From: Chloroflexota bacterium
GTDB lineage: Bacteria > Chloroflexota > Anaerolineae > Promineifilales > Promineifilaceae
Length of the DNA: 64,000 nucleotides
NCBI GenBank assembly: GCA_024277135.1
Contig: JAJRVV010000245.1
Location: 1 to 64,000 of the forward strand
Reading direction: 5' to 3'
Shown here: positions 202 through 51,077 of the stretch, piece by piece
Numbering within the stretch: the stretch's first letter is position 1
Layout: each line of letters starts with the position of its first letter
The notes under the pieces: generated by a model
Told to the model about the DNA's origin: nothing
Database searches by the model: none
What the model saw: only the letters and a program-made list of their open reading frames with translations
Program-made: the position numbers and the translations under genes

Positions 202-1732
202 CTGTCAGATTACCGGCGCTATCCAGTTTGCCGTCGGTAAACGGTTTCTGCCAAACGGTGATGCTTTTACGCAGGGCGCGACGGCCGTATCGGCTCATTT
301 GCTGACTGCTGTTCCCTTTTCTCTGGGGCAGCACAAAAATTTTAACGGGTTTAAATCCTACAGCCTCGGCTAAATTGACGCTTAATAAATCTACCGGAAT
401 AACTTCCCCGGCATAGCGCACATTGTCATTCACGATGGCAACGTGCCCGCCGCGTTCACAGACGCGATACAGCTCGGCAAAGACAAACGTCAATTCGGCG
501 AAGTATTGCCAGATCATCCTGAGTACGCCTTTGTTGTTGATTTGCCCTAATTGGTTGCGTGTGTGCAATGCCTGGTTGATCTCTCGCAACGCTTCATTTT
601 CCTGCCAGATTTTTCTGATCTGTTCAAACCGCGCTTCTTGCCCGATAGAGGCGTAAAATTGTTGCAGCTTGTCCAGTTTTGGCTTATTTTCCACCGTGCA
701 GGAAAGCATATCTTGCCGCAGGCGAAAAATCCCATCTTTCACCTGTAGGTAAGCTAATTCCAGGGCATAGGTTCGGGTGTAATCGTACCGGTTGGCGTAG
801 GGGGGAGAGGTGATGACAGCCTGGAAACGGCCGTCCTCCATGAGCGGGAGCGTATAAAGCACATTGCCCTCAACCAACTCTTGCCGGCTGCTATCCGGTC
901 GGGCCGCTTGTAAACGGCCGACGTCTCGAATGACCTGGTTTAGTTTTTGCAGGAAAGCGTGTGGTACAGTGGGGATTTCGCCTTTGTCAATACCTTTCAC
1001 CGGTTTTTTGCCCTGACCAACGCGAACCTGGTTGCGTTTAATAATTTTTTGGGCGCGGCCGTCCCACCTGAGATATTGTCCATCTTTGCGCGTGTAACTG
1101 ACATCTTCCAGGACGCTCATCAGAATGGCGCGGCAAAGCTGCCGGGTCAGCGGCGACACATCCATTTGCTCAAACCACGCCAGGTAGGCCATGATCACCT
1201 GTTCGTTTTCGGGGGGGAACGCGCTTTCGGTGATGGTCAGGTGGGGGAAAGCGTTGTCAGATGCGGGTGGTTGCTGCTCTTGAATCAGGTCGCGCACGGC
1301 CGTCATCTCTGCCAGATCATAGGCAAACACGGCCGTTTTCGCTTTCCAGGCCAAATGGCAATGGGGCAGCAATTCAATGCCAACCGCGTCAATACCCAAC
1401 ATTTGCGCCGTTAGCAGCGTGGTCCCTGACCCGGCAAAAGGATCGAGGACGCTGTCGCCCGGCGAAATGCCGAATTCTACCAAGAGCAATTCAACCAGTT
1501 GCGCCGAAAACCCTTCCCGGTATTTGATCCAACTGTGTAACGTTTCCGTCTTGTTGGCTTGAAAGCTGACAAGCCGCCGGTTAAAAACATCCGTTAATTG
1601 CAAAAACTGAGCGTACCGCTGTTCCAGTTGCAGCCGCGCCCGTTCATCACACACGCCATTGTGTGAAAACGAGTTTTGGGTTAAGAGGAGAGGCGGTTCT
1701 GCCAGAATGTTAGGAAGAGCCAATTGTCGCAT
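107..1732 (-). CDS. site-specific DNA methyltransferase (N4-cytosine/N6-adenine type), orphan
   Basis: ORF 107..1816; motifs DPFAGSGTTLL (AdoMet) and VITSPPYANRYDY (catalytic PPY). Residues 1-28 of the ORF are antisense WYL-gene sequence, so Met29 (1732) is the likelier start. Confidence 0.85.
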   Translation of the reverse strand: MRQLALPNILAEPPLLLTQNSFSHNGVCDERARLQLEQRYAQFLQLTDVFNRRLVSFQANKTETLHSWIKYREGFSAQLVELLLVEFGISPGDSVLDPFAGSGTTLLTAQMLGIDAVGIELLPHCHLAWKAKTAVFAYDLAEMTAVRDLIQEQQPPASDNAFPHLTITESAFPPENEQVIMAYLAWFEQMDVSPLTRQLCRAILMSVLEDVSYTRKDGQYLRWDGRAQKIIKRNQVRVGQGKKPVKGIDKGEIPTVPHAFLQKLNQVIRDVGRLQAARPDSSRQELVEGNVLYTLPLMEDGRFQAVITSPPYANRYDYTRTYALELAYLQVKDGIFRLRQDMLSCTVENKPKLDKLQQFYASIGQEARFEQIRKIWQENEALREINQALHTRNQLGQINNKGVLRMIWQYFAELTFVFAELYRVCERGGHVAIVNDNVRYAGEVIPVDLLSVNLAEAVGFKPVKIFVLPQRKGNSSQQMSRYGRRALRKSITVWQKPFTDGKLDSAGNLTAVPNLKSVVGAGWAGNHLVFGERRCLPPISP

Positions 1733-2526: not shown

Positions 2527-2637
2527 AGATTCAGTAGATCAAGATTTTCGCCACGAATGCCACGAATTACACGAAAAACACGTTCTTAATTCGTGAAATT
2601 TGTGCAATTCGTGGCAGATTTTGGATCTACTGAGATT
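2527..2637. mobile_element. MITE-like element, copy 1 (101 bp, 2532-2632) with TSD AGATT
   Basis: CAGTAGATC...GATCTACTG termini, internal inverted repeat GCCACGAAT/ATTCGTGGC, flanked by AGATT (2527-2531 and 2633-2637). Confidence 0.85.
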
Positions 2638-2743
2638 ACTGGCATTGTTCAGTTTGCCGTCGGTAAGCAGTTTCTGCCAAATGGTGATGCTTTTACGCCA
2701 GGCGTGACGGCCGTATCAACTCATTTGACCGTCGGCATCATCA
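2638..2743 (-). pseudogene. remnant of a methyltransferase 3' end, internally deleted
   Basis: 2638-2727 matches 212-302 (end of the methyltransferase ORF); 2728-2743 (accgtcggcatcatca) matches 1759-1774 near its 5' end; joined at shared atttg. Confidence 0.75.
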
Positions 2744-2807
2744 AGTGGTAAAATTTAGAACATAAGGTCTAAAAACACAAGCTCGACGTTCACGCATCAA
2801 GAAACCC

Positions 2808-3776
2808 ATGTCACGATTAGCGTCCCGCACCGCCCGATTGCGGCAGATAGAAGAATTGCTGTTGGTTTCCCCGACAGGGTTGAAGGCGGCCGAGATCGCC
2901 GGCCGGTTGGGGGTGGATCGGCGCACCATCTATCGGGACATTGATTTTTTGTGCGACCAGAAGCTGCCGATATGGCAGGAAAACGGCCGTTTCGGCATCA
3001 ATCGCGCCGGTTATCAAGCCAACGTCCGCCTCACCTTCCACGAAGCCACCGCGTTGGTCATGGCCGGGCTGCTGCTCTCCCGCACCGTCAGCGATTATGA
3101 CCTGCACGTAGCCGCCGCCCTGCGAAAACTGGCGGCCGTCTTCCCGCCTAACCTGGTCGCCCACCTGGAACGTATCATCAGCCGGGTGCAAGATCAGCCG
3201 GACGGCCGTCGCCAGCTCCACATTCTGGAAAAAATCGTCGAAGGGTGGGGAACCGGCCGTAAGGTCAAAGTCGGCTACCGTTCCCCTCGCAGCGGCAAAC
3301 TGCGCCTGCGCATTCTGGCTCCCTATGCCCTGGAACCCACCCCGTCCGGCATCTACGTCATCGGTCATGACGAGTGGGCCGAAGACATCCGCACCTTCAA
3401 ACTGGATCGGCTGGAAAGCGCCGTCATCCTCAAGAAGCAGTACGCCATCCCCGAAAATTTCGACCTGTCCGCCCGCCTCAAAACCGGCTGGCGCATCATG
3501 GCCGGGGACGCCCAGACAGAAGTCGCCCTCCGCTTCACCCCGGAGATGACCTCCCGCGTCCGGGAGCGGCGCTGGCACGCCAGCGAAACCTGGGAGACGC
3601 TGCCCGACGGCGGCTGCCTCCTCCGCGTCAAAGTAGCCGACCCCCGCGAAATGCAGCCCTGGATTCGCAGTTGGGGCGCGGCGGTGGAACTGCTGGCCCC
3701 GGAGTGGCTACGGGCGCAAATCGGGGAAGAACTGCGGCAGGCGGCGGCGCGGTATTGTGACAAGGTGAAGGGGTGA
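2808..3776 (+). CDS. HTH (DeoR-type) WYL-domain transcriptional regulator
   Basis: MSRLASRTARLRQIEELLLVSPTGLKAAEIAGRLGVDRRTIYRDIDFL...GRKVKVGYRSPRSGK...YVIGHDEWAEDIRTFKLDRLE. Confidence 0.9.
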   Translation: MSRLASRTARLRQIEELLLVSPTGLKAAEIAGRLGVDRRTIYRDIDFLCDQKLPIWQENGRFGINRAGYQANVRLTFHEATALVMAGLLLSRTVSDYDLHVAAALRKLAAVFPPNLVAHLERIISRVQDQPDGRRQLHILEKIVEGWGTGRKVKVGYRSPRSGKLRLRILAPYALEPTPSGIYVIGHDEWAEDIRTFKLDRLESAVILKKQYAIPENFDLSARLKTGWRIMAGDAQTEVALRFTPEMTSRVRERRWHASETWETLPDGGCLLRVKVADPREMQPWIRSWGAAVELLAPEWLRAQIGEELRQAAARYCDKVKG

Positions 3777-32051: not shown

Positions 32052-32063
32052 GAATGAGTCGCA

Positions 32064-32125
32064 AGACATCCGATTTCTCACTGTCGAATGTGCTGACCTC
32101 GTGAGTGACAAGAAATCGGATGTCT
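32064..32125. repeat. 62-bp inverted-repeat element, copy 1
   Basis: AGACATCCGATTTCT ... AGAAATCGGATGTCT, 15-bp perfect arms. Confidence 0.85.
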
Positions 32126-32135
32126 GGTAGTTGCC

Positions 32136-33203
32136 TCAAGGCTTCACATCCACCACACCGCCAAACGAATTGACTGCCAACGTCCACTCACTGCCAGGGG
32201 TGAATTGGAGAAACTCCTCCAGGCTGCTGGTGGTGTAGGTGTACCGCTCCCCGTCGCTGGAAAACACAACTTCATATGACTCATCGGCGGCGCCGGTTCG
32301 TTGGTCGCCCGATAGCGATGTTTGCGGCCAAATCGGGTTTAGATCCGCGCCGCTGATTTGGGCGGTGTCCACTTCCACCCACTCAGTCACCGTGTACTCG
32401 CAGAAATCGTCATACACCTGGTATTCGCAATCTTGCACCACTTCGCCCAGGCCGGTTCCGGTATCTACCGTGTAGGGCGTGCCGCACACCTCGACGGAAT
32501 TGGGGGCGGGGTTGGCCTGGGTGCGGCGCACCCGCTCGGAGCAACTGCCCACGCTGGCATCGGCGGGGATTTGGTCGGCCCAGTCGCTGCGTTCCACCGG
32601 CCCCAGCGCTTCGATGGCGATGCTGCGCGTCCAGTTAACGGATTGGACGGAGCCGGTGACATCTTCGGTGCGCAGGAACATGACTGCCAGAATGCCGCAC
32701 AAACAGAGGAGGCCAATCAAAATGACGATGAGGAAAACGGGAACGCCTCGTTTCTTCTTGGGGGCGTCGGGCACGGCCGTTTCCCCATCCGGTTTTTGCA
32801 GGAGACCATTGCAGTTCGAGCAGCGCACGGCCGTTGCCGGGTTCATCGTGCCGCAGAAGGGGCATTTCACATCCGGCGCTTCCTTATCCTGAAACGCGCC
32901 CAAAACCTGGCCCGATTGCCGCCGGGCAGCATCGGTGAGATCCCCCATGCAGTTGCTGCAAGTTGTAGCGCCGGCCGGGTTGCGCGTGCCGCAGTAGGGG
33001 CAGATGATGTCTGGCCCAACTTTGGCGGCTTCAATCTTCTTCTGGTCAGTGACGATTTCCTCTTTTGCCGCCTGCTGAAATTTCACATCTTCCGGTTGGG
33101 GCGCTCCACAGTTTGAACATTTAGCGGCCGTGCCGGGATTGCGTGTGCCGCAGAAAGGACATTCCCATTCTAATTCTACATAACCGAGCGATTTTTTGGC
33201 CAT
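32136..33203 (-). CDS. membrane protein with three zinc-ribbon domains
   Basis: CPFCGTRNPGTAAKCSNC, CPYCGTRNPAGATTCSNC, CPFCGTMNPATAVRCSNC, then a TM segment and C-terminal domain. Confidence 0.75.
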   Translation of the reverse strand: MAKKSLGYVELEWECPFCGTRNPGTAAKCSNCGAPQPEDVKFQQAAKEEIVTDQKKIEAAKVGPDIICPYCGTRNPAGATTCSNCMGDLTDAARRQSGQVLGAFQDKEAPDVKCPFCGTMNPATAVRCSNCNGLLQKPDGETAVPDAPKKKRGVPVFLIVILIGLLCLCGILAVMFLRTEDVTGSVQSVNWTRSIAIEALGPVERSDWADQIPADASVGSCSERVRRTQANPAPNSVEVCGTPYTVDTGTGLGEVVQDCEYQVYDDFCEYTVTEWVEVDTAQISGADLNPIWPQTSLSGDQRTGAADESYEVVFSSDGERYTYTTSSLEEFLQFTPGSEWTLAVNSFGGVVDVKP

Positions 33204-35106: not shown

Positions 35107-35217
35107 AGACTCAGTAGATCAAGATTTTCGCCACGAATGCCACGAATTACACGAAAAACACGTTCTTAATTCGTGAAATTTGTGCAATTCGTGGCGGATT
35201 TTGGATCTACTGAGACT
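35107..35217. mobile_element. MITE-like element, copy 2 (101 bp, 35112-35212) with TSD AGACT
   Basis: One mismatch to copy 1; flanks AGACT/AGACT. Confidence 0.85.
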
Positions 35218-41423: not shown

Positions 41424-41519
41424 TGTTCCCATACGCTCCTGAATCGTCATCCGCCGGGGATGGCAATTGGCTAAATTCGACAGGCTCCATGTCTCTATTT
41501 TAACCTGTTCGACAACGAC

Positions 41520-41581
41520 AGACATCCGATTTCTCGTTGTTGGGTGTGTGGGGGTTGTGACTGACCAGAAATCGGATGTCT
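41520..41581. repeat. 62-bp inverted-repeat element, copy 2
   Basis: AGACATCCGATTTCT...AGAAATCGGATGTCT. Confidence 0.9.
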
Positions 41582-41599
41582 TGGCGGTTAACAAATTAC

Positions 41600-41661
41600 A
41601 GACATCCGATTTCTCGTTGTTGGGTATGCGGGGGTTGTAACTGACCAGAAATCGGATGTCT
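41600..41661. repeat. 62-bp inverted-repeat element, copy 3 (tandem to copy 2, 80-bp period)
   Basis: AGACATCCGATTTCT...AGAAATCGGATGTCT. Confidence 0.9.
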
Positions 41662-41690
41662 TGGCGGTCAACATTGTCAGCCGATGGTGA

Positions 41691-50967: not shown

Positions 50968-51077
50968 AGATTCAGTAGATCAAGATTTTTGCCACGAATG
51001 ACACGAATTACACGAAAAACAAGTTCTTAATCGTGAAATTCGTGAAATTCGCGGCAAATTTTGGATCTACTGAGATT
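50968..51077. mobile_element. MITE-like element, copy 3 (100 bp, 50973-51072) with TSD AGATT
   Basis: CAGTAGATC...GATCTACTG, flanks AGATT/AGATT; diverged from copies 1 and 2. Confidence 0.8.

Follow-up and report, generated by a model that had tools for sequence, protein, structure and literature searches.

A 101-bp MITE family with ISH3-type ends in the genome of a Chloroflexota bacterium

Insertion sequences (IS) of the ISH3 family have ends beginning with CRGT and were in 2008 known only from archaea (De Palmenaer et al. 2008, PMC2266710). Short elements mobilised in trans have been described for other IS families: ISH2 of Halobacterium is moved by the ISH8 transposase (PMC10264941), and SMN1/SM3A are miniature inverted-repeat transposable elements (MITEs) of Sulfolobus that are mobilised in trans (PMC3718332). 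Here we describe a 101-bp element at positions 2532–2632 of a 64,000-nucleotide stretch of DNA from a Chloroflexota bacterium of the family Promineifilaceae (GenBank assembly GCA_024277135.1, contig JAJRVV010000245.1), the whole of which is called the window below. It resembles ISH2 and SMN1/SM3A in being short and multicopy, in lacking a transposase and in having autonomous-element ends and target duplications, but the transposases that move those elements belong to other IS families or subgroups, and the ISH2 duplications measure 10 bp instead of 5 bp. Compared to ISH3 insertion sequences (NF033541; PMC2266710) the element is much smaller (101 bp versus about 1.2–1.5 kb), has no transposase gene and possesses an unrelated palindromic interior. 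The open-licence papers that we searched contained nothing on its CACGAATT repeat by sequence and, in titles and abstracts, nothing relevant for MITEs in Chloroflexi or Chloroflexota; the passages found there on ISH3 and MITEs do not describe an ISH3-driven MITE. From the evidence given below the element is very probably a non-autonomous MITE with ISH3-family ends that was moved in trans by an ISH3-type transposase.

A preliminary description of this DNA had reported a near-palindromic 101-bp element between AGATT repeats, and exactly this was found. The features of this copy (copy 1) and of the two others in the window are as follows, L189 and L143 being ISH3-type elements of relatives.

2527–2531, no strand: left target-site duplication AGATT of copy 1, read directly and supported by the genome-wide flank pattern
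2532–2632, plus strand: MITE copy 1, 101 bp, near-palindromic, without an open reading frame (ORF) of note, based on direct reading, genome-wide copies and folding
2532–2548, plus strand: left terminal inverted repeat CAGTAGATCAAGATTTT, an ISH3-type end sharing up to 15 of its 17 bases with those of intact ISH3 elements
2549–2615, no strand: interior CACGAAT palindrome, elsewhere also present without these ends
2616–2632, minus strand: right terminal inverted repeat, reading inward CAGTAGATCCAAAATCT, an ISH3-type end that agrees at 16 of 17 bases with one end each of L189 and L143
2633–2637, no strand: right target-site duplication AGATT of copy 1
35107–35217, plus strand: MITE copy 2 (35112–35212) with AGACT duplications
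50968–51077, plus strand: MITE copy 3 (50973–51072), diverged, 100 bp, with AGATT duplications

Copy 1 runs from CAGTAGATC to GATCTACTG and both of its ends start with CAGT, in agreement with the CRGT of ISH3 ends. The window holds three matches to its first 21 bases, compared to none in shuffled sequence. The strand folds into a single long hairpin (−45 kcal/mol, z = −9.3), and the 101 bp are non-coding, with neither an ORF nor a transposase gene. Thus, although the ends and target sites are those of the ISH3 family, the lack of an own transposase gene makes it a MITE with ISH3-type ends and not an ISH3 insertion sequence.

In the draft genome (G000; 4.98 Mb in 251 contigs, 97% complete), of which the window is contig 218, we identified at least 44 two-ended copies including the three from the window, all of them read with their flanks. 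Since 22 copies have exactly the sequence of copy 1 and no more than one base separates it from 31 of the 101-bp copies, the expansion is recent. Exact 5-bp direct repeats flank 39 of the 44 copies, while identical flanks of 4, 6, 7 or 8 bp were not observed for any of them. The duplicated sequences comprise eleven different words (AATCT, AGACT, AGATT, AGTTT, AGAAT, AAACT, AGTCT, AGTAT, ACTCT, ATTCT and AACCT), all 39 starting with A and ending with T against a background of 7.7% for A...T in the flanks, and their consensus is close to A-R-N-Y-T. Because these words vary and are nevertheless exactly repeated, the flanks are target-site duplications and not part of the element. The preliminary description had proposed a MITE family without transposase and with 5-bp duplications, which would have been contradicted by invariant or mismatched flanks throughout the genome; the proposal therefore holds, except that AGATT is not the target site as such but one of several A-R-N-Y-T-like words. 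In the five remaining copies the flanks do not match, and two of these combine two valid target words (L027 with AATCT/AGTTT and L036 with ATTCT/AAACT), which is expected after recombination between copies or from a wrong join in the assembly. The family thus shows the usual properties of MITEs, being short, dispersed, multicopy and highly similar, with terminal inverted repeats and duplications of constant length but varied sequence; ends shared with autonomous elements were found in relatives and not in its own genome. Copies L007, L010, L011 and L025 are flanked by low-complexity intergenic sequence of the GGAGACTGGAGATTAGAGACT kind, which is rich in A...T target words.

In order to find an autonomous partner we searched 397 genomes of the class with the end pattern CAGTAGATCNANRWTYT, using the reversed pattern as control. 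Matches were obtained in 28 genomes, compared to two matches in total for the control. In distant families they revealed further small elements that share these ends. The end pattern by itself also led to L143, which measures 1287 bp; the one long ORF of this element fits the ISH3 transposase profile over its entire length (1.1e-51) and also matches Pfam DDE_Tnp_1. ISH3 transposase matches are present in 32 genomes of the class, most of them below the equivalog cut-off of 225 bits of NCBIfam NF033541, so the elements found are relatives of the core family. We tabulated 16 two-ended ISH3-type elements of 1191–1475 bp, all of which encode the motif Y-(2)-R-(3)-E-(3)-R characteristic of ISH3-type transposases. 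Their ends are CAGTAGATC or the near variants CAGTACATC, CAGTAGTTC, CAGTACTTC and CAGTGAATC, and eight of them are flanked by exact 5-bp duplications such as AGATT, AGTCT, AAACT, AGTAT, ATTCT and ATTTT. Within the family of the window's genome four of 52 genomes carry an ISH3 transposase. One of these, G029, provides the clearest case, as it harbours both a copy of the MITE and L189, a 1275-bp element with an open frame of 400 residues and AGATT on both sides, whose ends are identical to those of the MITE at 14 and 16 of 17 positions. Overall, the intact Chloroflexota relatives of ISH3 share about 14–16 of the 17 outer bases with the MITE, and annotated ISH3 elements of cyanobacterial plasmids also have related ends, e.g. 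CAGTAGACCGAAAAG together with an ACATT duplication in Trichormus. The full-length IS with these ends which the preliminary description had suggested to look for thus exists in the same family (L189) and class (L143), and none was found in the own genome.

The flanks of these ISH3 elements showed a further peculiarity. In six of the 16 they differ at one base, and in five of these six (L188, L156, L153, L149 and L150) only the central base is replaced, by its complement, giving pairs such as AGTCT/AGACT, AGCCT/AGGCT, AGACA/AGTCA and AAGCT/AACCT. The same was seen at the small element L142 and at none of the 44 MITE copies in G000; this pattern was recognised post hoc in a small sample. In the single-contig genome G065 two ISH3 copies at about 745 kb and 778 kb of contig C1 (L146 and L215) lie in opposite orientation and have reciprocal flanks when oriented alike (ATAAT/ATTTT and ATTTT/ATAAT), as an inversion of the intervening 33 kb or so would give. 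Other mismatches such as these are better explained by recombination between copies.

These results suggest how the family may have spread. An ISH3-type DDE transposase would have acted in trans on the element, recognising its inverted repeats (CAGTAGATC-nAA). Insertion would have taken place at A-R-N-Y-T-like pentamers, where a stagger of 5 bases would leave 5-bp direct repeats after gap repair. This would have happened in a recent burst, half of the 44 copies being identical, and the transposase would later have been lost or lie on a contig absent from the assembly. Mobilisation in trans had already been presumed in the preliminary description and is now supported by relatives, whose ISH3 insertion sequences share the ends and target sites of the MITE; since the own assembly yielded no ISH3 transposase, we infer it for the own-genome copies.

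Several points weigh against this model. Neither protein nor hidden Markov model searches revealed an ISH3 transposase in G000 itself, the likeness between MITE and insertion sequences is confined to about 17 bp at each end, and the movement is deduced from sequence comparison. A weak point of the preliminary description is the sequence at 205–225 that had been regarded as an empty site.

205–301, plus strand: paralogous to the sequence on the right of copy 1, with a single AGATT at 207–211, not a clean empty site

The right-hand homology of this paralogue to the flank of copy 1 is real (86% over 100 bp), but to the left of AGATT only TC (205–206) can be compared before a different repeat element begins (1–204). 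It agrees with an empty site and adds little, and the 5-bp duplication therefore rests on the genome-wide copies. When the joined flanks of all 44 copies were compared with all available sequence to find clean empty sites, only the L005 tandem pair clearly spanned a junction.

The missing transposase would also fit a mobilisation by some other transposase family whose duplications measure about 5 bp (IS1634, IS701 or IS1380 type) and an ISH3 likeness due to chance or convergence, since the own genome does encode three DDE_Tnp_1 proteins. None of these is associated with CAGTAGATC ends, however, and the end sequence, the duplication length and the A...T rule all fit ISH3, including the intact L189, which comes from the same bacterial family and lies between two AGATT words, so that we consider such a coincidence quite improbable. 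The remaining exact CAGTAGATC sites of the own genome outside the MITE were all listed and read; they are ordinary sequence or diverged and partial copies, and no full-length insertion sequence was among them. One of them is half a MITE, interrupted close to the end of a contig by sequence that is similar to the L124 element's inverted repeat. Even less credible is the view that the family is not mobile at all but a structured repeat (REP-like, RNA or terminator hairpin) that is dispersed in the genome and has conserved flanks. The strong hairpin on one strand and the somewhat higher frequency of the sites in poorly coding sequence than at nearby random positions would suit it, but Rfam shows no family match at the element, the copies are near-identical, and the eleven exactly duplicated border words refute it unless they were artefacts.

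A third alternative concerns only the origin of the MITE and leaves its mobilisation unchanged: it could have arisen by internal deletion from a specific ISH3 element, with an interior that is left over from the sub-terminal sequence of its parent. Both ends agree with ISH3 ends, but beyond about 17 bp none of the intact elements that were seen matches the interior, whose CACGAAT palindrome also occurs alone or beside other ends. This makes such an origin unlikely. In the own genome the palindrome is found without CAGTAGATC ends at G000:C2:15613-15670, C130:5916-5934, C132:4493-4511 and C214:37132-37189. It is also widespread in the class (L066–L090), alone or beside other shared ends (L066, L068 and L086). 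The MITE thus gives the impression of an unrelated palindrome framed by ISH3-type ends. That ends and palindrome are separate modules, the latter having repeatedly gained ends from different IS families so that any transposase at hand keeps it spreading, is a speculative idea to which we give a small chance. Mobilisation by an ISH3-type transposase remains our preferred explanation.

Additional repeats were observed in the window. Positions 1–204 belong to a second MITE family, which like the 101-bp family is palindromic, non-coding and multicopy with ends starting CAG. It is GC-rich and differs in its ends, CAGCA(A/G)TTCCAAATCT, and in its 9-bp duplications, and is probably due to another transposase. 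The window copy lacks its first three bases because the contig begins there; further copies are listed below.

G000:C49:8095-8298: second-family copy with AATCGGTTA duplications
C117:15917-16143: second-family copy with TGTGAAACC duplications
C23:15690-15891: second-family copy

Positions 207–1863 and 2633–3268 form a mosaic duplication, in which the continuous segment 2633–2743 is split in the other copy by about 1.45 kb (302–1754), and 1769–1863 repeats part of 3174–3268 at 93%. Another palindromic repeat of the ACAGACATCCGATTTCTC...GAGAAATCGGATGTCT kind occurs at 41518–41673 and 32062–32137, as a tandem pair plus a third copy that is 68% alike.

In summary, the MITE is a real element of an ordinary kind that is new as a family, and its likely mobiliser can now be named. 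The orphan repeat, which comes from an uncultured lineage of Chloroflexota, is thereby tied to a named transposase family that in 2008 was thought to be archaeal only. Moreover, CAGTAGATC-nAA ends together with 5-bp A...T duplications provide an exact rule for recognising such elements, and since other small elements, found in the class outside closely related families, bear the same ends, this rule is useful beyond the genome in which it was found.
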